In this document: positions 72 to 54,990 of the stretch, piece after piece
How positions within the stretch are numbered: the stretch's first letter is position 1
How the letters are laid out: each line of letters opens with the position of its first letter
NCBI GenBank assembly: GCA_023653785.1
Contig: JAMKCH010088216.1
Coordinates: 1 to 64,000 of the forward strand
DNA: 64,000 bases
DNA from: Ophioderma brevispina
Lineage: Eukaryota; Echinodermata; Ophiuroidea; Amphilepidida; Ophiodermatidae
Reading direction: 5' to 3'
Notes under the pieces: model-generated
Seen by the model: only the letters and a program-made list of their open reading frames with translations
The model's database searches: none
What the model was told of the DNA's origin: nothing
Program-made: the position numbers and the translations under genes

Positions 72-2256
72 TTAAGAGCAGTTAAATTCAATTGCATGTA
101 TAAAGTCACCATTGATTTGACAATTCTCAGTCATGGTGTTTTGTGGGGAGTATCTGTCATTGACACAGACTGGTTCGAAATACAATTTCTCAATTTTGTG
201 CACACCAGTTTTCCTTCCATATGTTTCAGGATCGTCAAATCTTAAAGGATTTTGAAATTGACCGTCAACCGTAAAATCAGATGCTTCCTTCCGTACGGAA
301 CACACTTTGTCGTCCTCTTCTTTCACCTCTAAAACACCTGAGTATTATCAAAACGTAATCTCCTTTTCATTATACACATCTCCACTGCATTTGAATTCCA
401 TGCATGCATCAACTTGTTCATCATGAATTCCTTTTCTGGCCACTATTTCACGTCTACCATAAAAACGCCCTCTTGTACTGCTACTTGAAGCTACAACGCG
501 CACAGCTGATGAGTCTGTGGTGATTCGGACGCCGATGAACAATAACTTTGTTTACTGGTGACCTGCGATGTAAAAGTTTCTGGATAAAACGTCTGGTATG
601 TTCGAAAGCTTGGAGACGATGCAATAGAATGGAAGGTATTACAAACAATATCTTCACAAGTTTCACAATAAAACTGAAAATGTTTTTCATTCGTTCCTGC
701 CTGAGAACACGTCCCTTCTTCGTCTCCCGCATCTCCACCGGGATAAATTGGGCCAACAGAATCACCAAGTGGTCTTGTATATATCTCAGGGTTTCTATGG
801 TCCGATATATAATACGTTAGCCTATCTTGATCTTCCCGAGTGAGTGAATAGTACGATCCAGTTTTTGTTGGGTCTAAGGGCTTTAGGTAAATATTGTTGG
901 AGGTTGCTGAGAGGAAGGCTATAGTGGTCAAATCCTTTGTACATACCAGTGGAACACAAACTCCAACACTGCCGTGAGTAGTGACCGAAGAAGGAGAACT
1001 TAGCCGAAAAATCTTGAAAGGTTCATGCTTGATATCCTGATCCCTTCGCCGCTGTTCTTCAAGTACTGATGTTACCTGATATGTGTTTGGCAAACTTGAA
1101 GCTGGATTGAAATTTTCATCTCCATATGCGATTACTTTGGCCCAGCATCGTTCTCTTGTGCCAATATCACCAATACTGTACCATTCAAATTCTGTTAGTT
1201 CTAGACTGCCTACTATCACAGGACCATCACGTTTTCTTCGACGAAGATCTTCCAATTCCGACAATGCCAGTGAACTTGCCATTTCCCAAAGACCAGTTTT
1301 ACTATTGAGTACCCAGAGTTTAATGTTGCAAATATTGTTGTCGTTATCTTCGTCATCATCACATCCATAATCAAGTCCTTGATTGATTATACGAACCCGT
1401 GAAAGACCTGCTATGAATAGCAGTTGTCCAGAAGGATCGGTGAATCGCAAAGAGAACACGCCAAATGGATTTAAGATAACGTGGTTTCCGTGTTCGTCAA
1501 CAGTAGTGAAATCTCCCGGGACGAGATCTGCTTGGGTAAGATTTCTCATGTCAACATTGTAGACAGATACTTGTACTGTCCCATTGTAAATTTCGCCATC
1601 ACTATTGTAAACCGAATTCGCAGCAATGGTTATCTCAACAAGGGCGCCATCAGGGTGACCATCTAATATTGGCAAAATATTGTCGACCGCACTGTCGATC
1701 GTCTTGATGTTTGAACTTAGCGGCATCATCTTTATGACATCATAACGGATAGAACCACTACTTACTTGGAATATCACCGTTGTATCCAGAACACGCGAAT
1801 ATGTCTCGTCTCGGAATGTTAACGGCACCCTACTTACCGCGTCAAGAGTGGAAAATCTGAAATGTCCTGTACTGTCCGTTGATGTTACGTTTTTATTATT
1901 ATAATACACAATTACTGAATCTAGTCCTTCAGTGACATCAGCTGTTGACACCACTCGCCCATTTATCTGGCTAGCCTTTGTCGCACACTGGGTACACCCA
2001 CAAGAAGTAACCTTTAACACAGGGAGGGTATATCCTTGACAATTTAGGCTGACAGTTTCTGTCTCTTGTGCCTGACAACAGTACGATTCACTCTCGGGAT
2101 CTAGACACAAAGTTTGGTCTTTGATCTTTCCGTTACACTTGGTGCTTGCACACATTCCCACGTCGTATTCTGATTTATTGGTCTCAGGCTGAACGCAGTC
2201 TTCTGGAAGCTGCACGATACGACTAGTAGGCTCTGGACTACAATCTATTGGAGTTG
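72..2256 (-). CDS. Terminal exon of CILP-like gene A: cysteine-rich block, beta-sandwich, furin site, C-terminal domain
   Basis: The acceptor is a T-rich tract ending TTTTTATACAG, with the exon starting at 2256 in phase with exon 7607-7761. The product begins TPIDCSPEP...PEDCVQPETNKSEYDVG, then a cysteine-rich block (CC and CGCTQC), then GRVVSTADVTEG, which opens a carboxypeptidase-regulatory-like sandwich. It continues to a DFTTVDEHGN region and to RRRKRD at about 1229-1243, a furin-type site placed as in vertebrate CILP. The C-terminal region carries EKHFQFYCETCE, MEFKCSG and DPETYGR. Frame breaks occur near 545 (a T missing from a short T run, judged against gene B) and near 330-345, so the last 160 or so codons read in other frames. 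The stop is TAA at 72-74. Errors of assembly are likelier than decay, because conserved residues resume after each break. Confidence 0.88.
540..550 (-). other. Single-base frameshift in the terminal exon of gene A
   Basis: Upstream of this point the frame reads ...SKQSYC. The paralogue continues CFIGLRIYT, and here FIGVRITTD is found one frame over. Gene B has three Ts (TGTTTC) where this copy has two (TGTTCATC). A missing base in a homopolymer explains the break. A second break lies near 330-345, after GDVYNEKEITF and before EVKEEDDKVCSV. Confidence 0.8.
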
Positions 2257-7606: not shown

Positions 7607-7761
7607 CTGTTACAGTTAATTTTGCTGAATCAGAGAATATGGGTCCGGCTGCATTATGAACGCGACAGGCGTAGTACCCAGAATCTTCTTCAGTCAGTCT
7701 TTTAAGAGTGAGTTTGTCACCGTGTACATCTTTTTCATTTATGATGACATCATCTTTGAAC
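7607..7761 (-). CDS. Second half of the Ig-like domain, CILP-like gene A
   Basis: A 155-base exon read on the minus strand. It begins with one base that completes the Trp codon left open by 9756-9864 (YE-W) and continues FKDDVIINEKDV. It holds the Ig F-strand signature DSGYYACRV and ends ...AKLTVT before donor GTACGT in phase 1, matching the large terminal exon. The paralogous exon in gene B is 37033-37184 (DSGQYTCRV). This is the C-strand to G-strand half of an immunoglobulin-like domain split by an intron. Confidence 0.92.
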
Positions 7762-9755: not shown

Positions 9756-9864
9756 CATTCATACTTGGTTGGAGGCAGAACGCCTTCAGCGCCGCAGCAA
9801 AATGAAACACTTTGTCCTGTAAGACGTAGCTTACTGACTGGATGCTTGGTAATAAAGGGTAGTT
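9756..9864 (-). CDS. First half of the Ig-like domain, CILP-like gene A
   Basis: A 109-base exon. The acceptor tract is TTTTCTTTTGTTTTCAG. The exon reads (E)LPFITKHPVSKL..TGQSVSFCCGAEG..TKYEW and ends TG before donor GTAAGA (phase 2). The B-strand pattern SVSFCC, with two adjacent cysteines, is the pattern at this position in vertebrate CILP. The initial AA joins the G left by exon 10646-10930 to form Glu. The gene B counterpart is 37937-38045, which has exactly the same length. Confidence 0.92.
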
Positions 9865-10645: not shown

Positions 10646-10930
10646 CTAATCTCTTTATTTGAACTTCGAAATATGACGTGCAATTGTCAGCCTTACTGCA
10701 TGTAGTCTTTTGTTGTTCAATAGCAAACATTGGCTTGGTGACACTCAATGTCTGCGGCGTAGCACAAACCCCTGAGATTTGAAACTTTCCTGTTATATCC
10801 GTAGTTGCCAGTGTGGTGTTCGGTTGGTCTGCATAGGTGATAGTTGCATCGGTCATTGGTACGTTGTTCACATCTGTAACTTGTCCAATCAAAATGCTTG
10901 TCTCACATGTACAGGCTGCACATGGATGAT
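10646..10930 (-). CDS. Carboxypeptidase-regulatory-like beta-sandwich exon, CILP-like gene A
   Basis: A 285-base exon with acceptor ATCTGTTGCAG and donor GTAAGT. It reads (D)HPCAACTCETSILIGQVTD, then VPMTDATITYAD, TDITGKFQISGVC and ...QIKRL. The G-x-V-x-D/N opening, the D-x-x-G-x-F turn and the following VC are typical of transthyretin-like or carboxypeptidase-regulatory-like folds, and this fold precedes the Ig domain in vertebrate CILP. The N-terminal CAACTC would sit just after a thrombospondin-type repeat in CILP, but no such repeat was found upstream. The exon starts and ends in phase 1. Confidence 0.9.
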
Positions 10931-34446: not shown

Positions 34447-34452
34447 TTTATT
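34447..34452 (-). promoter_or_regulatory. Polyadenylation signal of CILP-like gene B
   Basis: AATAAA on the minus strand (TTTATT as written), about 86 bases past the stop codon at 34538-34540. Position and orientation fit the end of gene B. Confidence 0.65.
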
Positions 34453-34537
34453 TTAATAAATTTCAGACTTGGAAGAGGCACCTAAAGCAACGTTTTGTAC
34501 GTTAAATGATATTTACAATATTTAGGTTGACGGCTAA

Positions 34538-36733
34538 CTATTGGCAGGTAATTTCTACAGCAGGAACAAAATCTCGACTGATCATGCAGTGCCCCCTATC
34601 TGCCGTCTGTGGGGAATACTTATCATTTGTACAGATAGGAATATTGTTAAACTCACGTATCCTATGTAACCCTTGGTCACGACCATACGTTTCTGGATCA
34701 TTGAATGTAAACCGTAATGTAGGCGCATCGCTATGATCGACGTCTGATAACATAAAGTCCTCTGCTACAGGACTTACGGAACATAGATCACCTGCACCTT
34801 TGACCTCTATTGTTACTTTTGTGGTATCTTCAATAGGCCTATTGCTATCTATGGAGTTGTCAAAAATCTCTCCACTGCATTTAAATTCCATGCAGACATC
34901 GATGAAATCATTGTTCGGATTACTTTTTCTCGCAAGTACCTCTCGAGAACCATAAAAGATTCCCTGATTAATGTTTTCAGGTGGCATAAAGCTCCCAACT
35001 TCACTCTTGGCTATTATTTGTACGACAGATACACTAGTGTATATCCGTAAACCTATGAAACAATACGTTTGACCGGTTAACAAAGGTCGTGGTAAAAGTG
35101 GATAATAAGTCAAGTAAGTTCTCGCCGGTGTTGATGCGGCAACTGATTCAAAGGTGTTACATAAGACATTATCACACGTTTCACAATAAAATTGAAAGTG
35201 TTTGCTTTCAGTTGAAGCTTCATTGCAGGCGCCTCCCGGAAAACCGGAATATTTACCGAGGAATATTGGACCACCGATACTATGAACCGGTTTTATTTGA
35301 AGTTTGATTTCACCTGAATCAATAACAGTTCGATAATTTAAATTATTTATGTCAATTGGATCCAGAGAAATGTTTGAGCTATTACTTTCTGCTGGAAGAA
35401 GCGTGTTCCCATTGAAGGAAGCTGAGAGTAGTGTCGTGAATCGCGAATCTTTGGGGTTACTCATGTCGCATGCCTGTGGTACACACACTCCAATATTACC
35501 AAAGGTAGTTCTTCCTGTTACCACAGCTCTGCGTAAGAATGGTATCCCCTCTTCCTCTATAATAGATGTCACCATGAAGTTATACGGCAAAAGACCTCTG
35601 GGGCTAAATTGTTAGAGTCGTAAGGAACTACCTTTGCCCAGCAACGTTCGCTTTCATCAAAGGCATCAATATTGTACCAGCGATACTCTATCACTTCCAT
35701 ATTTCCATCAAGAGAACCCAGACCATTTTGTCGCCTTTGTCTACTACTTTGACTTAACGAACTTGCCATCTCCCATGAACCAGTCTTTTCATTCAATACC
35801 CATAGACTAGTGTCACAGTCACCATTTTCGTCAGTTTTACACTGAGGTATCATTTCTGGTTTTACTCTAACCTCTGAAGAGCCCCAATTGCTAATTTATT
35901 ACCTGTAGCGTCGGTAAAAGCAAATGCAACCATACCGAAAGACCGAAGTTGTGCAACGTTGCCCTCCACATCAACTGTTGTGAAGTCACCTGGTGCCGAT
36001 TCTGCGTCGGTAACGTTTCTCATATCAATGTTTATAACAGCGGCGTTGAATGGCCCGCTATACATTTTACCGTCTCTGGTGTACATTGAATTAGGGGCTA
36101 TCACAAGTTCAGCCACAGCGTTGGACCCGTCACCGAATAATGGTAGACAGTTCTCCACTGAAGTGCTTTCCATGGGGATTGGATCCGGAATGGTTTTCAT
36201 CTTGATGACACGGTGTGTCACCAAATCGTTGTTTATTTCAAAAACGACAGTTGTGGTCATCACTCGGCGGGGATTCCATTCATCTTTCAATGTTAATGTG
36301 ATCTTTCGTGCTTGCGTTGCAGTTTCATAGATAAATATCCCATCGTGCGTTCCTGCAACTTGTGTTGAATTATAGTAAACGCCAATATAGTCCAACTCGT
36401 CTCCCGATTCTGCCGAAATTACACGTCCGATTATCTTACGTATTTGACTTGCACACTCTCCACACCCACACGTCTTGACCCTTGACACAGGAAGTGTGTA
36501 ACTTGCACAGGTAAGACTGACCATCTCTGATTGCACTGGTTGACAACAATGATATTCTTCTTGTCTGTCACTGCATGACGTCTGATCCATCTTTGTCCCG
36601 TAACACTCGGTTTGTCCACAGCTTCCAACATCAAATTCGGCTTTGTTGGTTTCTGGTTGAACACAGTCGCTTGGTAGGCGAATCAATTTCGATCTTGGTT
36701 CAGAGTTACAGCCGGTGTTGGATCCTGTAGATG
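34538..36733 (-). CDS. Terminal exon of CILP-like gene B
   Basis: The acceptor is AACATTCTGCAG, with the exon starting at 36733 in phase 1. It reads (A)STGSNTGCNSEPRSKLIRL, PSDCVQPETNKAEFDVGSC, a cysteine-rich block with YHCCQP and CGCGEC, and GRVISAESGDELD, which opens a beta-sandwich. It continues through DFTTVDVEGN, a furin-type RQRR (35731-35742), ESKHFQFYCETCD, VCMEFKCSGE and DPETYGRDQG to the TAG stop at 34538. The reading frame changes near 35868 (after GALQRLE) and near 35585 (between VPYDSNNLAPE and LPYNFMVTS). Matching sequence resumes immediately after each change, so small indels rather than real introns are the likely cause. Most of its blocks are recognisable in gene A. Confidence 0.88.
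35580..35592 (-). other. Frameshift in the terminal exon of gene B (downstream break)
   Basis: The frame carrying CWAKVVPYDSNNLAPE runs into a TAG two codons past CRITSW, while LPYNFMVTSIIEEE opens in another frame. Gene A reads straight through the equivalent point (CWAKVIAYGD...LPNTYQVTSVLEEQ). The other break is near 35862-35870. Confidence 0.75.
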
Positions 36734-37032
36734 CTGCAGAATGTTAAGATAAAATTATAGAGAAAAAGTTCTTCTCAGTTTCTTTAGAACCTGCTTTAAA
36801 TGATTGATGTTTACGATGAAACTAGTAAATTTCGATTTGTTCTTGAAGAGGTTACGAACAAGGCCCGGGGCGGGGAGACAATATGCAAAGGGTGGAGGCA
36901 GGGGAGAGAGATGCTTAGTTTACGTTTAATTTGACCTTTTAACACTGAACCACCAAATCATTATACCCCTTCAAAAAGAACAATATTTAATGACCATAAT
37001 GAGCTCTAACATCTGATTTTTATTATACCTAC
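36734..37032 (-). other. Intron of gene B (299 bp)
   Basis: Bounded by donor GTAGGT after exon 37033-37184 and acceptor CTGCAG before 36733. The corresponding intron of gene A is about 5.35 kb and full of repeats, so most of that length was gained by insertion or lost here. Confidence 0.8.
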
Positions 37033-37184
37033 CTATTGTTAGAATGGCTGGCTCAGAGTAGACAACACCGCCTCCGTTGTGTACACGACATGTATATTGC
37101 CCCGAATCTTCGACGGTTAAGTTATGGATAAGGAGAGATTCATTATTTGCATTGGCTGACTCGATGATGTCGGAATTTCTAAAC
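37033..37184 (-). CDS. Second half of the Ig-like domain, CILP-like gene B
   Basis: A 152-base exon. The acceptor ATATCTTTTAG is followed by G, completing the Trp codon (YE-W), then FRNSDIIESANANN, LLIHNLTVEDSGQYTCRVHN and a G-strand ending ILTI, before donor GTAGGT (phase 1). DSGQYTC is the Ig F-strand signature. It aligns along its whole length with 7607-7761 of gene A and is one codon shorter. Confidence 0.92.
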
Positions 37185-37936
37185 CTAAAAGATATTTATA
37201 CATTGGAATCAAAACAAAATTACACTTGGCTTTTGTTTGAAAAAAAAAAAGGATTTTCAAAGTAGTATTTGATAGGGTTAGTTTAACCCTTTCACGCTTC
37301 GGGTTAAAAAAATCTTTGCAATCTCCAAAGTGTGTGTGTTTGTATGTGTGTGGGGAGGGGGTGTGGGTGGGTGTGTGGTTGGTCGACTGGGCAGAGCCAT
37401 TGTTATGTTGTCACGCAGTTGAAAGATTTCAGGTGCTATAACCTTCCCCATTGAGTTTATTTTTTCAAAACGTAAGCACAAAATACCTATCCTCGCTCAC
37501 AAAAAATAACTAACTCTTGAACTTCTATTGTGTTTGTACAATTAACGTTGATCGTATTTTTCATCATTTATTCGAAAAAGAAGAAAGTCGAATAAAAAGT
37601 CATCATGAAGAAAAGGTAATTCGGCAAGCTTTGACCTAACAACTTTCTGCAGAACCAAAATTCTTAACTTATTGCTTAACGCCATTTCTATCAATATACC
37701 GCATTTTCGGAAGAAAACAAAATCAATGGTATTCAACAACCTATATTATAGGTTTCCGAAGAAAGTATTCGTTATTGTATTGAGGTAAATCTGTGAAGCA
37801 GTTATTACTTTATTGGAATATAATCACTGCACATATGCATCGACTAAAAGACATACTATAAGACAAGTTACTATTCAAAGTAAATTACGTTGTATTGTTT
37901 TGGTCAAATTGAGTTAATTATGTAGTTTTAACGCAC
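37185..37936 (-). other. Intron inside the Ig domain of gene B
   Basis: Contains a GT-rich, G-rich low-complexity stretch (37329-37382). Nothing else was recognised. Confidence 0.6.
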
Positions 37937-38045
37937 CATTCGTATTTTGTAATTGGTGTGTTGCTCTCAGCAATACAGCAGAATTTTACACTCTCTCCAG
38001 TTTGTCTTATCTTGTCTTCTGGTTGACCGATTATAAAAGGAAGTT
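37937..38045 (-). CDS. First half of the Ig-like domain, CILP-like gene B
   Basis: A 109-base exon, identical in length and phase to 9756-9864 of gene A. The acceptor is CGTTATTTTCAG and the donor GTGCGT. It reads (E)LPFIIGQPEDKI, TGESVKFCCIAES and TKYEW. The adjacent FCC cysteines of the B strand are kept. Confidence 0.92.
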
Positions 38046-39326
38046 CTGAAAATAACGAAAATGCAAAGGAAATGCTAAAATAATTGACCTCTTTCCAATT
38101 AAATAATATCCCAGCAGCTTAAAGTACGTAAATATAATTTAATCGAATTTCTTATTTAATAAAATTAGACAAATAAATTGATAGTTACGTAAAAGTTTTA
38201 CAAATACCAACCATAGACCATAGTTGTTGCAATAAAATTAATTCAACTCGCGAATGAACTTTTGTATGCAAGTTGATTGACCCAATTGTCCATCAATTGC
38301 ACCTCATCAAAATTGAGAGTTTGGTATTAGGCTCATACTTTTCATATAACTATAAGCTACTATAGTGAGAAATGTTTCCTTTGAAAGGTCTCTAAACATG
38401 TAGACTACAACCGCACAGACTGTTCTATGGGCCATAGTGGATACATATTTTTGCTGCTAAATATTCAAACCTCTAAAGTAATTTAGCTCAGAATTTTGAA
38501 TCGGGTGCTTTGGTGATATTCCTTAAACGTGAAGTAGAAAAAGTGATACGAAAAAGTCGGATCAAAACTTGTTTAAATATCTGACAGTGCGTAGAGAGAC
38601 GACTGTTAGGATTGTAAGTTTTATTCGTAAATCACAATTTCTTACTAACACTGGGGTTGATGTCAATATTTCAATTTGTAATGTTTAAAATGTAACAAAA
38701 ATCTTTTCTGTTAAAAGAACAAGATATAAAAGAAAAACTATATCAATAGAGGAAGAACAAATAAAAAGATCAAGAAAGCAAGCAAGCAACAGGACGAAAT
38801 ATAGTGATCTGAATACAAAAATATTTGACCAAGGACGAAATTTATTTGCACATTGGTAGGCAATCGCTGCATTAGACAAAATTTAAGTATATAGGGACGA
38901 AATGAAATGACTATAGTTTGAATTTGAAATTCAAAATAAGAATATAATTGACCAAAGACGAAATTTCGTTTAACAATTATGGACGAATTTAAAATTAACG
39001 AGAAAATGAAATATAATGAAAAAAGTGCTAAATTAACTTGAAAACCTATACTATATGCTTGGATTTTTTATACCCTAAAAATAATTTTGCAGATTGTATA
39101 GCTTTTTTTGGGACAGTCGTATATGCGAAAACCCGATTTGTTAGAAAATTGACGTCACCACCCTTGGACAAGATCTCTGAATCAGCCTTTAAATGTAATC
39201 GAGATTTCACGTTGATTCGTTTTTTACGTGTTTTGTTTTACCTGATGATAAACACATGCAATACAAGTTTTTTGGCCCCTCAGTAATCAGGGTTGTTATA
39301 TAGAACAAATGTTTTAAAATAATCAC
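38046..39326 (-). other. Intron of gene B with recurring GGACGAAAT motif
   Basis: (G)GACGAAAT(T) recurs at about 38793, 38832, 38896, 38957 and 38983 in an A-rich stretch. No coding segment was recognised. Confidence 0.5.
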
Positions 39327-39600
39327 CTATTCTTTGTAGTCAACACTAGATATGATGAAGTCTATCAATGACCGTGGTTTTGCTTCAATTGTTGTAAACC
39401 TAGGTTTCCTGACAAGAATCGGCTTACTTGTAGCACAAACTCCCAAAAAAAAAACGGGGGGGGGGTATTTGAAACATCCTGTAGAATTTGTGATAGCGAG
39501 TGCTATGTAGGGTCGAGATGCGTAGGCTACGGTAGCGTGGCTAAGCGGTCGGTTGTTTTCATCTGTAACTAGCCCTTGCAAAATATCTTTTTAACTCGCA
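39327..39600 (-). CDS. Carboxypeptidase-regulatory-like exon of CILP-like gene B (damaged)
   Basis: Aligns with exon 10646-10930 of gene A: GLVTDENNRPLSHATVAYA, then NSTGCFKY and GVCATSKPILV-KP-F. Between FKY and GVCATS stands a homopolymer pair, A10 C G10 on the plus strand (39445-39465), which gene A lacks. The N-terminal CE is reached only by changing frame near 39585, and the 3' boundary (ATAG|GTGATT) is off frame relative to gene A. No good acceptor is visible, so the upstream edge is approximate. Either the exon is decaying or the assembly is poor here. Confidence 0.65.
39445..39465. repeat. A10-C-G10 homopolymer pair inside a coding exon
   Basis: Ten A, one C and ten G on the plus strand, inserted in an otherwise conserved beta-sandwich exon. 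Probably artefactual or a replication-slippage insertion. Confidence 0.8.
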
Positions 39601-39789
39601 GGCGTCAAAGTTTCGTTGAGATCTCCATACGGACAAATGTTAATCACGGTCTGGAAGTATTCATGGCAATAACCAACATAAAAATACCAAGAGGTAAACA
39701 TATCATGACAAGCTGTTTGTTGCATAACGATTTGCAACTGAGAGGTATCTGACAAATGACCCCCTATTTAAAACTTTTAAACGCATCTA

Positions 39790-40065
39790 AGTCTTATGGT
39801 TAGTATACGTAACAAGCAAGGCACCATTCATTTTTTCATGAAATTTCGATGCGGGTTGGGAGGCTTCCGGAGGGTGCAGGCTGGAGATGATCCGGTAGCG
39901 ATTTGTTTTTTTCGTAGTTAACTTGTATTTAAACTTGTTAACTTGTGAAATGGACACTATATCGGCTATTTCACTTTTAACAAAATTCAAACAATTGAGG
40001 GGAGTTCGAACCTGCGACAAGCATAGAATTCATTCTTAACCACTAGGCTAGCGATGGATTTGTTG
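39790..40065 (-). mobile_element. tRNA-derived SINE
   Basis: On the minus strand an A box, TAGCCTAGTGG (40040-40050), is followed after 27 bases by a B box, GGTTCGAACTC (40002-40012), the two internal RNA polymerase III promoter elements. The head does not fold as a complete tRNA with a 3' end, and AT-rich unique-looking sequence follows, so a SINE is likelier than a tRNA gene. The 3' boundary is approximate. Confidence 0.7.
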
Positions 40066-40941
40066 GCCGATGTTGGGATTTTAATTCAATATACACTTGC
40101 ATGGAATTTAAAAGGCAACTCTTGCCAATAGATAATGTACCAATAGAAACTCATCAATATCATCAATCTGTTGGTTTAAGTGAAATGTGTCTATGAAGAT
40201 ATGCTGTAATCAACTACGTGAAAGAAAATCGCGTCCCGTAGGGTCCGAAGTCGAGGGGCCAATCCAAATAATGTTTTGGAAGATTTCTTAATTTGCAGGG
40301 CAACATTTAATGTTACAAGGATAAACACAGCCTTGTGTAAGCCATTATTTAATCCACAAGCAGTCATTTTATCCAAATTCATGTCAAGTCCACGTTTTCT
40401 TTGAGGGCCCTGTATCCTGGTAACCAGTACCATCTGTCCCAGGGCCGGGTTTTCGGCAGCTAAACAGTCACCCCATCGGGCTTATACGAAATCCGATGTT
40501 TTTTAAATAAAAATTAAAAAACCCTGGTAGAACTAACGAAGATCTACCTGCAAGGGCAGTCTGCTCTGGAGAGAGACCGGCCATACAGCCATTGGAGTCA
40601 GGGGCATTTGGTCAATTATCTCTTGCCCCAATAAATCCTCACCCAGCCGTTATTGCCTGTTAATGTGAGTGAATCGGCCACCCCCGTTTAGCGGAAAAAA
40701 AACCCTGATTTAAAACTTTTAGTTTACTACTACTGCTAAAATGCTCATTTTGTCTCCTAATGGCATGTTATGTCATACAACATTTTAATCACTGTCTTTG
40801 TGAAAACAGAACACCTATATAGTTTTAGAAGCGGGCTTGGAAAGAGCCATTATGACTGTTTCTAGACCGACTCATCCTTTCCTTATAAATCAGGGGCGTG
40901 TTACTCTTAGCCACTTATACATGGGTCTTTATATGCATTTC

Positions 40942-41172
40942 CAATACACCAGTGGCGTAACCAGACCTTTTGCAAATGGGGGGGGGGGCTTAAGGGGTGC
41001 CAAGGCTTTTTTGAGGGGGCGAATTTGGGTCCTTCTCCATAGACACTGTTATACAAAGTCAGTTCATTGGGGGGGGGGGGGCTGGCGGGGGGGCAAGGGT
41101 TCTGTTTGGGGGGGGGGGCTTTGCGCCCCCCTGCCCCCCCCCCCCCCCGCTGGTTACGCCACTGAATACAAC
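40942..41172. mobile_element. hAT-type MITE, G-rich interior
   Basis: The element at 40950-41164 begins CAGTGGCGTAACCAG and ends CTGGTTACGCCACTG, an exact 15 bp inverted repeat. Flanks CAATACAC and AATACAAC fit an 8 bp target duplication with one indel. The interior is dominated by G and C runs up to about 14 bases. It is the same family as 24677-24895. Confidence 0.88.
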
Positions 41173-42034
41173 CTGAACCAAAATGGAATTTGATGAAAAT
41201 AGTGCGCGATTTGTTTACATTTTGGAAGAAATCGCTGATAGTGCTTTAGCCTTCACTTTGATTTACCCCGTCACGGTCAGATCTCGAGGGGGATGGCCAA
41301 TTTAATTTCCGGAAACTATGACTTGGTTCGAAAATGTCAGAGTGAAGGGCGGAGATCAGGGCTGATGTGCACATCCTGGAACTTCCAAACAGCACAAAAT
41401 TTTGTTGCTCGGTTCGTTTTCCCCACCGTCTTTTCATTATGTTCTGATACACAAGTGCATGTACGAGAAACGTTGTTTGTACTCCTCTGCCGCTAGGTAA
41501 AAGTCACAGTTGGACCAACTAACCAGGTGAGTCCAATCGGTTTTCCAAAAGGACCCTCTAGTTAGCCAACTTGTTTTCACATGTATTCATGAGAAAAGAG
41601 AGGATTGGAATATTTCTAATCCATTCTGGCAAGTATTGCAACAATCGAAAACTATTTACAATCTCAAATGGATAACCAGGAGTTCATTTATAGGAGTTCA
41701 CTTGTATAACAGTGGGAATACACCGATATGGTGGTACATCCAAACACAGATTCAAAATTCAATTACACATTGCAGTAATTAATTGCCAAAATTGTGTTTT
41801 GAAACAGAACGTAAAAATGGGGGTTTAAAATAAGGCGGATAGAAAGAGCTGGCGAACGATAACCTGCCGATCGTACACAGAGAGCTACAGACACCGACGA
41901 ACCGCAAAAACGCTTAATGCAATGTTAGGTTGTTAAGGTTTACTCAAATGTTTATGAAGAAAATCGAAATAAGGTAGTTGTATGAAACCGGAAATGAGGA
42001 TAACGTCAATGGAGAGTAGAGTCCTTCACCATGT

Positions 42035-42375
42035 TTTGACTACAAATTAAAGGTCCATGGCCCGATCGTAATAGCCTCGTTCCCCAGAACCCCAGCAGAT
42101 TTTACCGGAAGTGGTCAACATATGGTATCAGCGGAAGCCCCTTAATTTTCTCAATTACCCTGTGCAATCTTAGAGCCAAAGGATGTTTGGTTTGGAAGTT
42201 ATGAGCCAAAAATTGGGACCCCTTTTGGTCGACCAATATTAATTTTACACAGTACTTATGGGGCTTACAAAATCACGTTTTTAGCCTCTCACATATCAAA
42301 ACGGGTTGGAAAATATCGGCGCGAAACTTTACAGATGGGTTTTGGGAGTGAAGGCCCATATATCAAGATTGAAAA
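42035..42375. repeat. Dispersed repeat, copy 2 (inverted relative to 17405-17772)
   Basis: Begins TTAAAGGTCCATGGCCC at a TTAA (42047-42050) and matches the reverse complement of 17405-17772 through TTTGGAAGTTATGAGC and CGCGAAACTTTACA. Confidence 0.8.
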
Positions 42376-42715
42376 CTTAATATACTTAAATCGGGGCGCC
42401 ATAACCCCTTTTAACTGGCAAGAAAAAGATAAAGTGAAACTGAACACAAATGTTTTAATCACACGTTGAATTATGCTGTTTGTCTGGACATGATGAACCA
42501 ATATCCGACATTATTTACGATAACACCGTAATGATCATTTAAATTACATTGTGGATTTCGCAGAATGTTCTGATTTTTTAAGACCATTGTTTCCGTATTT
42601 TGAGTACATTTCTAGGTTCTGTGTCGATTTTTCTGGGTCTGTCGCAAGCGGCCATTTTTTTAATTACGGGCATATTTAGGGAATATGGCACTCACATCAA
42701 ACGTTTTTCGCAGTT

Positions 42716-45712
42716 TGAATTCAAAAGGGAAATTTTTAAAAAACAACGTTCAATACGTCATGTGTGGTTTTTAAAATCCATGGTACAATTTGCGTCAGAT
42801 TTTTTCTGCATGTGTTGTCTTGTAATACATTGGCCAGGTGTAGAAACTAAAAACTTGACAAAGGGGGTTCTCGAACCACAAAGTCCCCGAGCCCGTCGCT
42901 GTATTAAAGGAGGGAAAGTACAATAGCGTAAGACACAGGTAGGATTGTGATGATGAAATAAGGGATTTGAAACCACAGAGGCTCACACCATCGTAGTTCA
43001 AACTACACTGACCCCAGATGACCTTAAATCTTGGAATCAAATGTTGACTACACCCACTAAATTTCTGACAGACAACCGCTAATAGTTAGTTTGCATTTCG
43101 GTGACCGACTTGACCTTGAAATGACCTTCACAATTTGTGCTTCTGAATGTTGACCACATGAAGTTCTTGACCATTTGCAACCATTTGTAGTGATTTGACC
43201 TTGATTTGACCTGAAGACCTTGAAATGACCGTCACAAGTTCTGTTACTGAATGTTGACCACACCCACAAGTTTTTGTAAAGATTTAGATCTGGTTTGACC
43301 TTGGATTACACCCAGATGACCTTGAAAAAAAATTGGCATTAAAATGTGAATACGCCCACCAGTTCATTACCATACAACAATGTGTTAGTGATTGGACCTG
43401 GATGACCCCGCATGAACTTGAAATCGTACAGTGAGTGCAACAAAGTAGATACGACTTTGCTATCAGATTTAAAGGAGATGAGAAGCATTTGTGTTTTAAT
43501 GCTTTGTGACTTTGCAAATTTAAAATCATATTACACCGATAAAAATGTATTTTAAAATATCTTATAAATGATCTCAGTTCCCACTAAGTCGATCACCCCT
43601 AAGAAGAAGTAATTAGATAATTAAAATGGCTAACTACACACATATTTTCCCGTGTCGTGCAACAAAGTGTATCTACCAGTTACGACTTAGTTGCACGACA
43701 CGTGAAATTAATGTTGCGTAGATTAGTGACAACAACGTCGTATCCCACCTAATTAGCTAATAACTTGAAATAAATTGGCCTATATTGAAATCTATGTTAA
43801 ATTGGTATTCTTTACTGTTGTAAATTATTAAGTACTGAGGAAGTAATATTGAGTGAAAAAAGGTGTAACATTTTTGATTGTTTTTTAAGGTTTTTCGTGA
43901 CCGAAATAAGACTAAATTAGCATAAATTGAGTAAAAAAATGAAAAGTACTCTTGTAACAAAAATAGTTTTGGGAGCTTTTTTAATATCACTTTTTAAAAA
44001 CCATCGCTTAAAGAAAATAAATGTTAGTATCTACCACACATGATTTCCCGTGTCGTGGAACAGAGTCGTATCTACCAGTCGACTTTGTGCACGACACGGG
44101 GCAATTCTTTTTGAGTGAAACAAAGTCGTACATACACCAAAAGAGGTCTATTTCGCTTAATAACTCGTGCAATATAAATTGAGACTGTTCACCGAAATGT
44201 CTATAATTAGCGTAATCATCTACTTTTTTCATATTATACAAATAACTCAATTCGCCAAAAATGTCAGTTCGACTTTGTGCACTCACTGACGAAATGACCT
44301 TAACAAATTTCAGCAATGGAAAGCGTGTGACGCACCCACCAGTATACATATCCTACCACATGTTTAGTGATTTGAACTTGAAGACCCCACATACTTGAAA
44401 TACCTTCAATTTGTTTTGGACCGAATATTAAGCATATCCACCAAGTTCATCATCTTACCACAATGCACCAGCTTGACCGCACCCACCAAGTATCCGTATC
44501 TACCACATGTAGTTGATTTGAACTTGATGACCCCACATTACTTGAAATGACTTCAACTTTTTTGGCAACCGAATATTGAGCATACCACCAGTTTCAAACA
44601 TCTTACACACTGACCAGGTGTAAGCAATTTTGACACACATTGAACCTTGACCCATGCCACTGACACATCTCCGACAAAAACTATCCACAAACGCCTACTG
44701 AGCGGACATATATGATGCAGATAGACATCCATACTTGACTTATACATGTAATTAAAGATATCATGTGGCAAACAGGTTATAGCCTAATTACCCTATTGTG
44801 CACCAATTTGACCATATTTTTTTACATATTTGACTATTGAACATTAACATGTGACACCCTTGGATCCGAGCCACCGCCTAGTTGAAATACATCTAGTTGC
44901 GAAGATGGGCCACTTAATTTGCCTGTTTTTCGATCCAAAGATCGGTGGGACGCACACACACCAACACACCCACACAACACGGACGCCTAAGAAGTGCTAT
45001 AGTCCCCCTTCGCCACAAAAGGGGGCGGGGCCAAAAGGCCATTAGAATCATCTATGGTCAAACACTTCATAGGACAGGTCAGAAACTCAAAAATATTAGG
45101 TTAAACGACTTCGAAAACAAAAGCATTATGCGCTACTTGTATTATCTCTGAGGTCTTATTACGTGCATAGTTATAGCATTTATTATATTGAAGGTCAATA
45201 AGAGGGTCACCAATTGTACATTTATAAAAACAAAGGCGTCAAAAGTACCCCTAGTCATTTTTAAAGAACAGACCCTTAGGGTATAAGGGTAACGAAGAGC
45301 CCTGAGTCAATCGGTCAAACGTAATTCTTCTTGGGATTGCCTAATTTGGCACAAATACAGTCAAATGTGTGGCAAATTGTTTTGACCCACCTTGCATAGC
45401 AATGAGGAGAATCGTTATTTGAACTCTATGACCTTACAGTGACTTTGAAATCTAAGCCGTTAAACTTGGTAAACTTATCCTTGACCCGAGAACACATGCT
45501 GGTATTATATTCAGTGTTTTTTTTTTTAACTTAATTTCAAGATGTGGACCATATCTTTAAAGACAGTTACCTTCGGAAGTGTGTGGTAATGTTGACATTC
45601 TTCAGTGGCGATTGAACGTATAAAACGGGATGAAGAGGGACAAGACGAAAATGTAGATTAAAAAACAATGTTATTCTTTATAATTATTTTAATTTAGTTA
45701 ATATTGATGTGC
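42716..45712. repeat. Large tandem duplication, unit 1 (about 3.0 kb)
   Basis: Begins GAATTCAAAAGGGAAATTTTTA and CGTCATGTGTGGTTT, and ends at the start of an equivalent block at 45713. The two units lie head to tail in the same orientation and are similar throughout, with very many short indels. This unit is longer because it carries an inserted inverted-repeat element (43428-44289). Both units contain a degenerate minisatellite of about 110 bp period rich in TGACCTTGAAATGACC and CACCCACCAGTT. Confidence 0.9.
43428..44289. mobile_element. Inverted-repeat element inserted in unit 1 (about 860 bp)
   Basis: Left terminus CAGTGAGTGCAACAAAGT (from 43430), right terminus CGACTTTGTGCACTCACTG (to 44289), inverse of each other. 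Internal hairpins repeat the theme (GTGTCGTGCAACAAAGT..TTGCACGACAC near 43653-43702 and 44050-44096). Unit 2 lacks the whole insert at the matching point near 46430, where sequence runs straight through as an empty site. CAGTG..CACTG ends hint at hAT, but no clean target duplication was seen. Confidence 0.85.
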
Positions 45713-47700
45713 TTGAATTTTCCAGGGGAAATTTAAAAATACAACTTTCAATTACGTCATGTGTGGTTTAAACAACCCATCGTACATTTGCGATCATGTT
45801 TTTATTGCCTGATGGTTGTAAAAATGGGCCAGTGTGTAGAAAATAGAAAACTGACAAGGGGGTTCTCGAACCACTAAAGGTACCACCGCCCGTTCGATGT
45901 ATTAAAAGGAGGGAAACGTAACATATCGTAAAGATCACAGGTAGGATTGTGGCAATAGGGATTTGGCAAAAACCACAGAGATTCAAACCATAGTGTTGCA
46001 AATACCCTTGGATGACCCAGATGTCTTGAACTTCTGGAACAAAATGTGACACACCCACAACAGTTCATGACCATAAAACCGCTCATAGTTAGTGCGACTT
46101 TCCGTGACGACTTGACCTGAAATACCTTCACATTTTTGCTGGAATGTGACCACCAAACATGAAGTTTTGACCAATACAAGCATTTGTAGTGTTTGACCTT
46201 GATTGCCCTGGCAAGGCCCTTGAAATGACCGTCACAAGGGTCTGTACTGAACTGTTGACCACACTCACAAGTTTTTGTAGAGATTATAGATCATGGTTTG
46301 ACCTGGCTTACCCCCGATGACCTTGAAAAAAATTTGACATAAATGTTGACTACGCCCACCAGTTTCATTACCTTACCATACAACCATGTGTGTGATGACC
46401 TGGATGACCCCACATGACTGAAAGGACCTAAAAATGTCAGCATGAAAGCTGACCCGCAACAACCAAGTATCATCATCTACGCACATGTGTAGGATTTGAT
46501 GAATGCCCCACAGTACCTTGAAAGGACTTCAAATTTTTGGCACCGAATATTTAGCATACCCACCAACGTTCCTCATCCTACCACAATTGCAAAAGGTGTA
46601 ACAGCACATTTTTGACCACTATTTGACGTTGACCCATGCCACATGACACATCTCCGAACTCCATCCACAGGCATACTTGAGCGACATTATGGTGCACAGA
46701 TAGACATCCATACTTGCTTAAATAAAAGATATCGTTTGCAAGGTTATTAGCCCGATTGAACCTATTTTTGACCAACTTTGACCATATGGTTTTACAATAT
46801 TGGACCTTGACCTAACATGTGACCCATTTGATTCGAGGCACCGATAGTTGAGCGACATCTATGTTGCGAAGCTGGGCACGTCATTTGCTTCGATCCCCAA
46901 GATCATGTCGAGGGAAGCACATAAAACACACGACGCCTAGGCATTTCTGTAGTCCCCTTCGCCAACAAAGTTGGCGGGGGGGGGACCCAAATGATTAGAA
47001 TCATCTAGGGGGTCACAGTTCAAGACATAGACAGAAACTCAAAAAACTAGGTTAAAAGATTCCAAAAAGCACAATGCGCTACTTTGAATTATTTGAATTG
47101 TCTTATTACGTGCATAGTTATAGCATTTATTATATTGAAGGTCAATTGAGAGGTCCAAACAAGGAGTAACCTATTTATAAAAACAAAGGCGTCAAAAGTA
47201 CCCCTAGTCGTTTTTTTTAAAAAAGGAAGGACCTTAGGTTACAAGTTAACGAGAGCCCATGAGTCAATTCGGTCACAAAGTAATTCTTGAGCATGACCTA
47301 TTTGCACAATTAAGGTCAAAAGGGTAGGGAATTGTTTGGACACCTTGCATTAAATTCGGAAGAATCGTTATGTTGAATATTTGCATTGCTTACATTACCT
47401 TTGAATATATAATGCCCGTTAAAATTGGTAAATCATCTTGTTAGCCGAGAGAAAATTGCTGGTAGTCTATTCAGTTGTTTTTTAAAATAATTCAAGATGT
47501 GGACCAGATCTTCAAGCCATACCTTCGGAGAGTTGGTGTAATGTTGACATTCTTTCAATGGACGTATCTGATACGTATAAAACGAAGATGAAGAAAGCAA
47601 AAGAAGAAATATTTACATTTAAAAAAACATGTATAATGATTTAAACTTTTAATTTTTGTTAATATATTGATGTGTACGTAAGAATTCCACTTAATTTAAA
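45713..47700. repeat. Large tandem duplication, unit 2 (about 2.0 kb)
   Basis: Matches unit 1 from GAATTTTCCAGGGGAAATTT through GGGGGTTCTCGAACCAC, CTTATTACGTGCATAGTTATAG and GGCGTCAAAAGTACCCCTAG to the AT-rich end. It lacks the inserted element. A further partial unit start may follow at about 47690-47740. Confidence 0.9.
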
Positions 47701-47834
47701 AAAAAAATAACACAGTTCTTCGAACACGCAGTGTGTGCGTCGCATTGCGGTTTTGCGACTGGGGTCAGAGTAACTGGGATCATTATCTAAACGTTCCCTT
47801 ACCCAGCGGGGCATAGTCGTTTAGAGCGATTCGT

Positions 47835-48012
47835 CAAAACGACGTTGGCACGTCGAAAACACGGTCGGACGGTTTTTATAATTTTATAAAATTTACGTCG
47901 AAAATGCAAATTGATGAATCGACGTTTTAAGAACGACGTCAAATCGATTCGCATTTCGAAATTAATAGGGTGTAAATTTCTAAAACTTCGACGTCTTTTC
48001 GACGTTCCAGCG
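47835..48012. repeat. CGACGT/ACGTCG motif cluster
   Basis: ACGTCG or CGACGT occurs about eight times in 180 bases, often as AACGACGT or TTCGACGT, in both orientations and with irregular spacing. A smaller group lies at 58620-58650. Confidence 0.8.
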
Positions 48013-49539
48013 CGATTGGCCCATGGGTGTACTCAGGCTTCAAAAATGAAACCTCTCAACATCACTGAAGCTGAATCCTGCCTTGGGTTGGGAGAATTGG
48101 CTCCTAGATCAACAGCCAAAACGCTACCCTCACTTGGCAGTGATCGTCAGATTTTTATCTAGGGCGTTGGGGATATAGAGGTTGTTACGATACAACTTGT
48201 GAATGCCCAAGGTCAGAACTGTACCTTTAAACAAAAAATGCGGCCTGTGTACAAATGATCGGCTTGTGCCGAATACTACGGCGAGTCACGTAAATCAATG
48301 GGTAGGGAGAATTCAAGTCCGTGATCCCCGTATTGCAGAAACATAATCCATGGGATTATGCATGAACAAATGCAACCCGACCCGGGATCCTAAATAACGA
48401 GTCTAAGCATGTCAAGGTCGGGATCCCGGGTCCGGGGGAAAAGGGGATGCTATCGTCGACTCTACGAATTATGCAAAGAATTGGGCTGAGGGCCGCCTGG
48501 GATACAGGACTGCATGTACAGATTGCTGTATCATCAAAAAGGGAAGGGAGGGTAAGATTTTTTGTTCATATTTTGTAAATAGATTATGTGGTAGCATGAT
48601 ATAGGCCATTTCGAAGACAATGTTGAATAAAAGCCGCTGATGTAGCGAGGTGCATTGTCGTCCTCTTTAAACGGTAAATAATCGTCACAATTGAAAAACA
48701 CGTTAAAAAGACGTTATGAATACCAATCGATTGCTAATCGATGGCGGTAATATAATGTAGTTTCAATTGCTACGTGCTTCCGGGTCGTTTTCTCGGCTTT
48801 AAATGGTTTATGGTCTGTTAGCGGTGTGCCTTGGAAGTATTATAAATCTCCCTACATATCGTAAGGACGATTTTTTGGCGCGGAAATGTAGGGTTCTTGC
48901 ATGTAGGGCAGATTGATGGCATGCGGTAACAACTGGTTGCTATATCACACTTTGCTGACATTGATCGAAGTCTACTACCGCTGAGGTTAACTGATGCGCC
49001 CGTGCGCGCCCGCGAGTATTAGCACTAAGCCAAATAATTCTGAATTTTATATATAACATGAGTTTATTAATAGATGCACGGTAGACCTTTAGACATGTTA
49101 GAAAGCGAGCGCTTCAGACTGTCAAGTTGCAAAAGGCATGCAAGAATTCCATAAATTACCGTTGGAATCCCAAATGCCCAAATCCAAAGCAGATAGGGTC
49201 CAGGCCCCACTGAGTTACGTCGTAGTTGTTATTCTTCACTTGATTGCCCGTTTGGTCAAAAAAAAAGTTGTTTGCCGTAATCCGCTTTACGTGTTACACA
49301 ACAACAATGAACAAGCGTCTAAAATTAGGCTCTCTTGGCCGCCCTCCCTGAAGAAAATTATTGAATTCAAAATGGAAAAGTTTATACCCTTGACGACCTA
49401 AATATTAGTCATGCACTATTTTTTTTAGTAGTGCTAAAAAGTGTTTTAAATTAAAAAGAATGTTTTTTTAAAAGATTTTCGGATTCAATTTCATAATTGC
49501 AAATATTTCTACAACTTGAAAATTAGGACTTTTTAATTA

Positions 49540-49700
49540 CAAAATTCGTCAAAAGACCTATCAGCAAATGTGTACTCAAATTCGTCATTTTGTGCTTGAC
49601 AAACTAATTCTAGTCATTTGATGAGTCTAAAGTCGTCTTTACTTAGTCAATTAATTTGTCATTTGACAAATTAAAATTCATCAGTCATTAATTTGTCATT
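49540..49700. repeat. Clustered TTTGTCA/TGACAAA motifs with a 24 bp near-palindrome
   Basis: At 49651-49674 TTAATTTGTCA and TGACAAATTAA face each other around a two-base centre. Half-copies recur at about 49550, 49585, 49600 and 49690. Confidence 0.6.
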
Positions 49701-49884
49701 TTAAAGTGTATATTTAGAGGTAATGAAAATATTTTGTAATCATGAAAACTAGTTTAAAATATGGGAAGGTTATCTTCCAGCATAGCAAACATATTTCCAG
49801 CATAGAAGTACATTATTATGAATGATAAAACACCTGATTTGCATGACTAATTTTTAATTAGTCAAATAAGATACTTTTTTGACT

Positions 49885-50205
49885 AATTGTTATTCTCAGT
49901 TCGGATATGGTTCTACTAAAGAATGAGTATTTGAAACTGTCTTTCTTTGTGGAATATCTTTGATAAGCTTTGCTATGGTGGTGGCGAGTGGGGCGTAGAA
50001 CCGGCTGTAGGAACTTTTGCGCCGGTATGGCAACCTGACCGGTCCTGATCTTCTGTAGCATCGTAAGGCGAGATGCCTTTCTTCTCGTTTGCAGTGGGTC
50101 CCAGTCGAGACGTTCCAGCATGTTTGTGACGCTATTTCTTGGGTTATAATCCCTGCATGCAAAACGGGCGGTTTGACGTTGTATTTTTTCAAGTTTTGGG
50201 TATTT
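49885..50205 (-). mobile_element. Truncated non-LTR retrotransposon, C-terminal end of ORF2
   Basis: On the minus strand an open frame reads KIQRQTARFACRDYNPRN, MLERLDWDPLQTRRKASRL and KYSFFSRTISE. The pattern QR-AARF..DY..SVT-ML--L-W--L--RR, followed by a YS-FFPRTI-like stretch, is characteristic of the region after the reverse transcriptase domain in LINE ORF2 proteins. It breaks off before the usual W-N-LP motif. The fragment begins about 15 bases past the donor of exon 50221-50388. Confidence 0.85.
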
Positions 50206-50220
50206 TATTAACTTACTTAC

Positions 50221-50388
50221 CAGGTTTTGCTAACAAATATCCCACTACAGCTCCGGAAATTGCAAGCAACAAAACTATAACAATTGTTACTGTGATGATG
50301 CATAACAGACGCCTTGATGTATTCCTAGGTTTATCATTGTCATCAGGCACGTCGTAGATGTTAATCTGGTCGTAAGATTGCGGTTGTA
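50221..50388 (-). CDS. Transmembrane exon of CILP-like gene B
   Basis: A 168-base exon with acceptor CCTTTTTTGCAG and donor GTAAGT. It continues the tail as (V)QPQSYDQINIYDVPDD, NDKPRNTSRR, then the hydrophobic stretch LLCIITVTIVIVLLLAISGA, VVGYLLAKP (about 26 residues). The RR just before the span and the lack of a signal peptide predict a type II orientation, N-terminus inside. YDQI and YDVP are tyrosine motifs of YxxI and YxxP type. The exon ends in phase 1, the phase of the CILP sandwich exon in gene A. Confidence 0.82.
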
Positions 50389-50620
50389 CTGCAAAAAAGG
50401 ATATGAAAAAATCTTAGATCGAGTGGACGATTTAGAGACAAGTAACTAGCGTTTGGCATTTCCCACTTCAAGCAGAGCGATTTTCAGGTGGTTTCTATTG
50501 CTATTAACTTGCCTGTTTTTCGCATGTCTCTTTACATCAATTAATAAACTGCAAACCCATCTATACATTTTCCAATTGCTTTTCAATAGGACATTCACAT
50601 TTTATTATTATCTTGTTTAC
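50389..50620 (-). other. First coding intron of gene B (232 bp)
   Basis: Donor GTAAAC after 50621 and acceptor TTTTTTGCAG before 50388. Nothing notable inside. Confidence 0.75.
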
Positions 50621-50720
50621 CTGAAGGTTTGATAGTCGTTTGATATTCATGATCAGATTCATATGCCGGATTGACGCGGTAGCTCTGATAATCATTGTCT
50701 TTTGCAGATCTTTGTGCCAT
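50621..50720 (-). CDS. First coding exon of CILP-like gene B: tyrosine-rich cytoplasmic tail
   Basis: The ATG (complement of 50718-50720) in context CCAAAAATGG opens 33 codons and one base: MAQRSAKDNDYQSYR, VNPAYESDHEY, QTTIKPS, ending CTTCAG|GTAAAC. The tail is hydrophilic and holds four tyrosines, including NPAY at residues 17-20, an NPxY-type motif known to bind PTB domains and clathrin adaptors. There is no signal peptide, consistent with the internal signal-anchor in the next exon. An untranslated 5' exon could precede it. Confidence 0.75.
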
Positions 50721-51862
50721 TTTTGGCGGACGATTTCAGATGGAAGAAAATGAACACTCTTTTAGCGAACGAAAATTGTGTGTACACACTCCACAAGAAC
50801 TTTGCTTTTATGTGTGGATTCTGCTGCTTAGGCAGCAGATATTACACTATATTTAGTGTACTGTTATCCGTTGATCCGTTAATTGGTTTCTATAGTGTAG
50901 TAGTCGTAATACTAAGGGGGATTCCCCAAGATGTAATGGATGTCTATGAATAACAATAGTTTTATTGAAAATACTGTTTTTTACACCCACACACTTGAAT
51001 TAGGATTGTCACCGCTTCACCTGAATTTGATTTACCCATAATGATAGTAAGTCATACCTATTGCATTAACCCATATGTCACTGCCTGGGCACATAAAATT
51101 AAATATTTTAATAAAAAAGGAAATTACTAACGGTTATTACCAAGCAGGTGAATGATTCGCCCTTTGTATATGCTTGAATAGTTTTTTTTTGCATTTGCAT
51201 AAAAATACTCATTTCATTGCGGGTAATTTCCGTCATGACTACCATACATATCGCACTGTACCTTGGAAACAAACGGCTTTTGTGTAGTATGAACTTTGCG
51301 AAATCACAGGTTCAGAAATTGTATTGCTCAATCGTATAAACGTCTGTGGTAATACTTTTGTCCAAATATCTTTATTTTTCATATTTTATTGTGCACTGAG
51401 TAATAAAGGCCTTATACCGAGTAATCGAGGGCCTCCAAAAGCAAGGGCAACCAAAAATAGCAAGAAACCTCCAAAAGGAGACTTCTAGATTATTCAAAAA
51501 GATCCCATGCATACTTTTCAAGGATATAGAGAGTCGACAAAAATAGTTTGAAAACTTTACTTTCGGTCAACCCCTCCCCCGTTGTATCATGTTTAATCTT
51601 GGTAGACCTTACAATAACCGGGTTACACCCAGTCGAGATTATCATGTTTGAATGATATACATGTATGTGACATGCACATGTGGACTTGCACGTTGCTTTC
51701 TTTTGGTTATCCAGTCTATATAACATCCTTGATTAAATAACCTCCTGCTCGGGCTCTTTTGGGATTCCCAATATGGTCGACAATGGCTTCAAGCACGGAA
51801 CCCAGATCAGTGTTGTAAATGCATACAAAATCCAACATGCCAGTACCCTACATGGTACACTG

Positions 51863-51995
51863 CGAGGGTTTACTGCAAGAAGGCCCCATCTGCAATAGCT
51901 GCCATTTGTCACTTGTGTTCTTACTAAGTGTTATACCTGCCAAATCTAACACGTGGCAGCTATTGCATATGGGGCCTTTTTGCCCTAAACCCTCG
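51863..51995. repeat. Inverted repeat, arms about 42 bp, 49-base spacer
   Basis: The left arm 51863-51904 (CGAGGGTTTA..AAGGCCCCAT.TGCAATAGCTGCCA) and right arm 51954-51995 (TGGCAGCTATTGCA..GGGGCCTTTTTG..AAACCCTCG) are nearly complementary. Confidence 0.88.
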
Positions 51996-54429: not shown

Positions 54430-54652
54430 CGCTATTTCGTGATCAATAAACACGGACAGTACCACCGTGCAAATATAATTCATCTCTGTCAGTATAGTTA
54501 TGCTTTATATATGTTCTATTTCATTGATTCGTAGGTATTTGTTTCAAAAGCAATATCACCTATCCATAGTTGGCCAGACGATATCTAAACGATATAGATA
54601 CAACGTCTTTTTTGAGAATTTCATAACGGCGATATTCGAATAAGTAGATACA

Positions 54653-54990
54653 ATGTTAAAACAAATTAATGTCGCTATATATTTCATATTGATGAGCCAT
54701 GTATGTTTCTTGGCACACTCCCACCCTTCATTGACTGTAAAGAAGTTTGTTCGAAGATACTCGAATGATTATACCACACATCCGACGACAGAGACTGAAG
54801 CCAGAAGTATTCAAGAATGTGCCGCCCGGTGTCTAACCAAAGCAAACGGCTGTGTTTCATTTCAGTTTTGCAACGATTTGAAAATATGTAGTTTGTTTAA
54901 GGGCGATTCCTTAGAGGACGCTATTAACTGGCCTGTTCATGAAGAATGGTGCATATTACAAAACGTCTTACGAACATCTATGATATTTAA
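54653..54990 (+). CDS. First coding exon of a secreted PAN/Apple-domain protein
   Basis: The ATG at 54653 opens a signal peptide, MLKQINVAIYFILMSHVCFL-AHSHP. A PAN/Apple domain with six cysteines follows: SIQECAARCLTKANGCVSF, QFCNDLKICSLF and EEWC. PAN domains bind proteins or carbohydrates in secreted and surface proteins. The frame closes at a TAA (54992-54994), but TTTAA|GTAAAC at 54990 is a plausible donor and further domain exons follow, so I place the exon end there. If it is not spliced, this is a 113-residue secreted single-PAN protein. A donor phase of 2 versus the phase 1 favoured by exon 62578-62692 leaves the junction uncertain. Confidence 0.75.

Follow-up and report, generated by a model that had tools for sequence, protein, structure and literature searches.

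A CILP-family gene encoding a putative type II membrane protein in the brittle star Ophioderma brevispina

Anchor and CILP exons of gene A

The window analysed here, a 64,000-nucleotide stretch of Ophioderma brevispina DNA (contig JAMKCH010088216.1, positions 1 to 64,000), contains two CILP-like genes arranged in tandem, both on the minus strand: gene A (50720-34538) and gene B (10930-72), for which the N-terminus was not found. Their bodies are 36-43% identical, depending on the segment. A preliminary description had placed a start exon and a transmembrane exon upstream of the CILP exons of gene A and proposed that the protein is tethered with its N-terminus inside the cell. The best relatives were brittle-star proteins of Amphiura filiformis, among them P0001, annotated by NCBI as CILP 1-like (1090 residues). 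The features of gene A were as follows.

50621..50720, (-): exon 1, start codon and putative cytoplasmic tail with NPAY (boundaries re-derived; score against P0001)
50221..50388, (-): exon 2, end of the tail (SRR), one hydrophobic membrane segment and the start of the predicted ectodomain (hydropathy, score against P0001, exon scan)
41371..41552, (-): TSP1 exon remnant (frameshift-aware search; donor and cysteines judged by eye)
39327..39650, (-): sandwich (CarboxypepD_reg-like) exon, frame-broken (frameshift alignment, Pfam; limits by eye)
37937..38045, (-): immunoglobulin (Ig) exon 1, entered in phase 1 and left in phase 2 (boundaries, Pfam)
37033..37184, (-): Ig exon 2 (boundaries, Pfam)
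34538..36733, (-): CILP body exon, to the stop codon (CILP_5th, E value 8.8e-18; CILP_C, 2.4e-11)
35731..35742, (-): furin-like site RQRR (motif check)
34447..34457, (-): overlapping ATTAAA and AATAAA, a possible poly(A) signal (AATAAA, 34452-34447, by eye)

Exon 1 begins with an ATG just after an in-frame stop and ends in phase 1 at the donor CAG/gtaaac, while exon 2 has strong sites on both sides (acceptor ttttttgcag, donor CTG/gtaagt) and is in phase 1 at entry and exit. The two exons join in frame to give 89 codons, ending in phase 1, for a polar tail of about 60 residues followed by SRR and a 21-residue segment with a mean hydropathy of 2.96. No hydrophobic window starting in residues 1-15 was found in the tail by a hydropathy check, which is not SignalP. 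Exon 1 scored 68 against P0001, compared with a maximum of 44 in 40 shuffles and 34 for the plus-strand control; for exon 2 the score was 83 (25 shuffles, maximum 53; plus-strand control, 48). Both exons share the strand of the Ig exons and the CILP body exon and are located upstream of them, as originally described, and the phase 1 end of the membrane exon was reproduced when its boundaries were re-derived.

A scan of the minus strand that required splice sites, a phase 1 end and a membrane segment returned exon 2 as the sole candidate between 39700 and 52000; its splice cut-offs were rough approximations, with which exons with weak sites would be missed. A looser hydrophobic scan without splice sites also gave two weaker minus-strand segments upstream of gene A (2.03 at 63614 and 1.93 at 62338, compared with 2.94 for exon 2) and one plus-strand segment at 25660. 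An Rfam search gave no matches at gathering scores. The anchor exons were assigned to the CILP gene because P0001 unites the tail, membrane segment, TSP1, sandwich, Ig and CILP domains in one protein, and on this comparative evidence the view that they are real exons of gene A is well supported.

If the start and membrane exons instead came from an unrelated gene, the CILP block would have its own secretion signal. The join between anchor and CILP exons in this animal is a prediction from the sequence, and no domain was identified when three frames of the minus strand of 40-50 kb were scanned with Pfam, although the frame-broken TSP1 remnant was also missed there. However, the N-terminus is common to P0001, the order of the parts agrees with that protein, and there was no other spliceable membrane-exon candidate in 39700-52000, signal-peptide exons not having been searched for as such. 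An unrelated origin is thus very improbable.

The body exon matched CILP_5th (PF23708) at 64.6 bits and CILP_C (PF23599) at 43.8 bits, both above the cut-off of 27, as expected of a CILP family member. CILP (PF23591) and CILP_8th (PF23730) scored 18.6 and 24.8 bits in gene A, below 27, and 29.7 and 34.9 bits in gene B, above it. Ahead of the body, the second Ig exon scored 28.9 bits (PF00047, cut-off 21.8), the first Ig exon alone 17.2 bits (Ig_3, cut-off 30). The RQRR motif lies between the two halves, where cleavage is predicted. The TSP1 repeat was found in gene A as a degraded remnant only, a loss that was taken as compatible with membership because P0014, a second Amphiura filiformis protein (CILP 2-like, NCBI annotation), also has no TSP1 match.

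The intron after the anchor exon contains an open frame (50229-49861, minus strand) without a Pfam match at E up to 0.01, which we take to resemble the end of a reverse transcriptase protein of the long interspersed nuclear element (LINE) type.

Apparent N-terminal anchors in the relatives

With a query in which the sandwich of gene B was substituted for that of gene A, P0001 was 52% identical over 90% of the query. Its parts are, in order, the tail and membrane helix, TSP1 (123-169), sandwich, Ig and CILP body, which is the order that the preliminary description proposed to seek in relatives, with TSP1 added. P0001 shares with gene A a predicted type II N-terminus with NPA[F/Y] and TTIKP, the Ig, CILP_5th, CILP and CILP_C domains and the furin-type site, but its TSP1 and sandwich are intact. 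In the tail and membrane segment 32 of 74 residues are identical, the tails reading NPAFQSDPYYETTIKP in gene A against NPAYESDHEYQTTIKP in P0001. The AlphaFold model of P0001 has only one long helix, at 60-84, and a PDB fold search with that model gave mostly Ig-domain proteins with low TM-scores among the best 50 of 1992.

The searches for relatives, which depend on shared short words, gave at least ten proteins with CILP domains among the matches listed. No vertebrate CILP was among them, so the searches were far from exhaustive. P0002, P0015, P0016, P0017 and P0018 are fragments lacking the N-terminus and are uninformative on the anchor. The full-length set consisted of P0001, P0011 and P0014 from Amphiura, P0012 (isoform X2) from Mercenaria and P0019 from Mizuhopecten, that is, three species in two phyla, all of them annotations. 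All five have an N-terminal membrane segment, which starts at residues 42-143 and lies within 42-163; that of P0019 is weaker (2.3) and contains an aspartate, and in P0011 a cysteine-rich part of the body holds a second, less hydrophobic segment (1.73). By the same hydropathy check none of the five has a hydrophobic window starting in residues 1-15, so that the signal peptide of a secreted vertebrate-type CILP was found neither in gene A nor in any full-length relative.

NPxY/F-like motifs can bind PTB or clathrin adaptors. Such motifs occur in gene A (NPAY), P0001 (NPAF), P0014 (QPAY) and P0011 (NAAF), and not in the two bivalve proteins. A furin-type motif in the middle of the body was present in all seven proteins checked (A, B, P0001, P0014, P0011, P0012 and P0019), and P0001 has two further matches to the motif, at 59 and 539. 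When the tails were compared with that of gene A, the score was reached by none of 500 shuffles for P0001, 6 for P0011, 16 for the Mercenaria protein, 96 for the Mizuhopecten protein and 101 for P0014, the relatedness of whose tail to exon 1 is accordingly not measurable. The best of the ten tail pairs among the five full-length relatives was reached by 54 of 300 shuffles. Tail homology between the phyla was thus not significant, and the common topology is no proof of a common anchor.

A third CILP-like protein, P0011 (Amphiura filiformis, 1666 residues), also has an N-terminal membrane segment; HYR, EGF and three TSP1 domains precede its sandwich.

Damage in gene A and the relation to gene B

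The preliminary description had not included the TSP1 exon at 41552-41371. This remnant gave a frameshift-aware score of 78 with 8 frameshifts (maximum of 30 shuffles, 51), and with harsher frameshift costs 58 against 45 (2 frameshifts) and 49 against 41 (1 frameshift, only the first part aligned). About half of its six cysteines are replaced and, by eye, the donor is absent at the expected end, so the exon is read as dead. In the sandwich, 50 of 91 residues between 39638 and 39338 are identical to P0001, with five frameshifts needed, and the Pfam score is 21.7 bits against a cut-off of 32.3, compared with 34.2 for the gene B sandwich exon. A C10-G-T10 tract lies within the gene A sandwich exon at 39465-39445. 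This exon, too, is probably dead. While the Ig and body exons bear out the earlier statement that the downstream exons are clearly of CILP type, the sandwich of gene A, although its match is genuine, does not. Nor was the claimed phase 1 start of that exon confirmed: with the likely acceptor (exon from 39650), reading in phase 1 meets a stop after three codons, as judged by eye; the clean phase 1 sandwich is that of gene B (10930-10646). A direct join of membrane exon to sandwich in gene A is therefore doubtful, the latter being broken and a TSP1 exon having once lain between them.

Single-base frameshifts interrupt the body of gene A twice, at about 35884 and at about 35603, in both cases beside four-base G or C runs; the anchor and Ig exons are clean. 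Together with breaks near T runs in gene B, the position of the two frameshifts suggests that the body frameshifts are probably assembly errors. Sequencing error as the sole cause of the damage was rejected for the TSP1 exon, where conserved cysteines are substituted, and kept for the body. Of the 101 residues that do not vary among the other relatives, the body retains 95 (0.94), and it retains all 23 invariant cysteines, in a leave-one-out count that excluded the two bivalve proteins and skipped gap and break positions, and in which the other nine rows gave 0.85-0.98. Such retention indicates that the gene A body was under constraint until recently.

The TSP1 remnant with its missing donor, the five sandwich frameshifts and the two in the body would also fit a recently dead copy, in which the anchor exons are genuine but the protein is not made. 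The retained residues and cysteines, the clean anchor and Ig exons and the probable assembly errors argue against this, and the body branch of gene A (0.53), although longer than that of P0001 (0.24), is like that of P0016 (0.57). We consider a dead copy unlikely, though it is the most serious of the alternatives. Gene A is a copy that has lost a usable TSP1 exon and probably the sandwich exon as well, and its product, if expressed, is most likely anchor-Ig-CILP body, because at that border phase 1 is common to the anchor exon and Ig exon 1.

Gene B comprises the following features.

10646..10930, (-): intact sandwich exon, entered and left in phase 1 (boundaries, Pfam)
9756..9864, (-): Ig exon 1 (boundaries)
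7607..7761, (-): Ig exon 2 (boundaries)
72..2256, (-): CILP body exon (frameshift alignment, Pfam, furin motif check)

Its body is interrupted by one frameshift (about 537) and two stops (about 345-350) and contains a furin-like RRKR at 1240-1229; a PDB sequence search with it gave no matches. By body sequence gene B groups with P0014 (55% identical over the compared part), and gene A with P0001, P0016, P0002 and P0015. The contig that carries P0014 is listed with the same length as that of P0001. All borders checked in the two genes are phase 1, except for the intron inside the Ig domain, so the anchor exon fits the gene A Ig exon and the gene B sandwich equally and the phase argument adds little.

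The anchor exons might serve gene B also, or instead, with one anchor for either of two CILP cassettes. Joined to the gene B cassette they read in frame for 860 codons. No anchor was found upstream of gene B (10.9-34.4 kb) by searches with the P0014 N-terminus, with and without frameshifts, which gave nothing above shuffles (8 per setting), or by two hydrophobic-segment scans, one of them the scan for spliceable membrane exons (10980-34400, minus strand; the cut-offs would miss weak sites); yet P0014 has an anchor directly before its sandwich. On the other hand, the tail of gene B could be too diverged or absent from the assembly, the tail in the window matches the gene A relative P0001 and not P0014, and an intron of about 39 kb would have to skip the whole of gene A. 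A shared anchor is quite improbable.

A 119-base repeat is present in three copies (10071-10552) in the intron after the gene B sandwich exon. Elsewhere in the window, an open frame at 54644-54991 on the plus strand starts like a signal peptide and contains a PAN/apple domain (PAN_1, E value 4.5e-7), and two direct-repeat pairs, each about 4.5 kb apart, at 55787-57432 and 60297-61934 suggest either duplication of a segment or a mobile element present more than once.

Predicted topology and its meaning for the CILP family

The reading that best accounts for these observations, with a probability of about 85%, is that gene A belongs to the CILP family and encodes a predicted type II membrane protein. 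The exons and splice sites, the N-terminus in common with P0001, the one hydrophobic segment and the furin-type motif were read directly from the DNA; from the single segment and its basic N-flank we infer the N-inside orientation. Once spliced, the message would specify a cytoplasmic tail, about 60 residues long and bearing the NPxY-like motif, followed by an uncleaved signal anchor that is flanked by basic residues on its N-terminal side. Insertion as type II would keep the tail in the cytoplasm and expose the Ig and CILP body modules on the outside. If vertebrate CILP is a guide, the ectodomain may be cut at the furin-type site of the body, in which case the N-terminal part would stay on the cell and the C-terminal part would be released or still attached.

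Several points weigh on the other side: 1) the anchor-to-CILP join in this animal is predicted from the DNA sequence, 2) the anchor lies about 12 kb from the intact Ig exons, and the TSP1 and sandwich exons in between are both broken, 3) with two body frameshifts no full product is readable, anchor-Ig-body running for 466 codons to the first stop, 4) the P0001 gene model is an annotation, 5) its structure model has low confidence, with a mean predicted local distance difference test (pLDDT) of 61.5, and 6) the other four full-length relatives have N-termini whose scores against the window are 38-48, inside the shuffle range of P0001.

The Mucin2_WxxW domain (PF13330) is present in vertebrate CILP. 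It was found neither in P0001 (E up to 0.1) nor in P0011, P0012, P0014 and P0019 (E up to 0.01), nor in the three minus-strand frames of 40-50 kb, in the scan that also missed the broken TSP1 exon. The teneurin ectodomain is cut by furin. Teneurins, described as type 2 transmembrane proteins (PMC5898268), are alike in outline and are not family members; the only link is a weak TTR_TEN1-4 match of the gene B sandwich (19.2 bits, cut-off 27). According to one report, vertebrate CILP1 and CILP2 contain TSP1 and Ig C2 domains, the CILP2 precursor is divided at a furin consensus site, and CILP2 has a putative signal peptide of 21 residues (PMC12839030), in place of which gene A has a predicted membrane anchor. 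The same paper reports that the W(S/G)XW motif of CILP1 binds TGF-beta1 (PMC12839030), a motif that gene A would lack with the loss of TSP1. CILP-1 is also reported to bind CD47 (PMC11930641), and a CILP1 orthologue appears in the down-regulated gene table of the Notch section of another paper (log2 fold change -2.65; PMC7217437). The main text of PMC11310086 contained neither CILP nor cartilage. A membrane-anchored CILP was not found in the titles and abstract beginnings of the literature matches listed, and the anchored form is, as far as this search shows, new within the known CILP family.

The preliminary description was largely right in its observations. Its topology reading is well supported by an annotated protein with the same order of parts, P0001, and by the four other full-length relatives, whose topology looks the same. 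The conversion of a matrix protein into a surface protein, which it inferred here, is not supported and is doubtful, since anchored forms were found in all five full-length relatives, in two phyla; the vertebrate secreted form may instead be the changed one, and the surface form of CILP may be older than the secreted one. A tentative joint reading, to which we give somewhat less than even odds, is that the CILP of early bilaterians was at first a type II protein of the cell surface, that the secreted matrix CILPs of vertebrates arose when a signal peptide replaced the anchor exons, and that the brittle-star tandem cassettes are now losing outer modules (TSP1, sandwich) while keeping the anchor, Ig and body. 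CILP has been studied as a secreted vertebrate matrix protein; if invertebrate CILPs are on the cell surface, the first role of the family may have been surface capture or signalling, and the matrix role would have come later.

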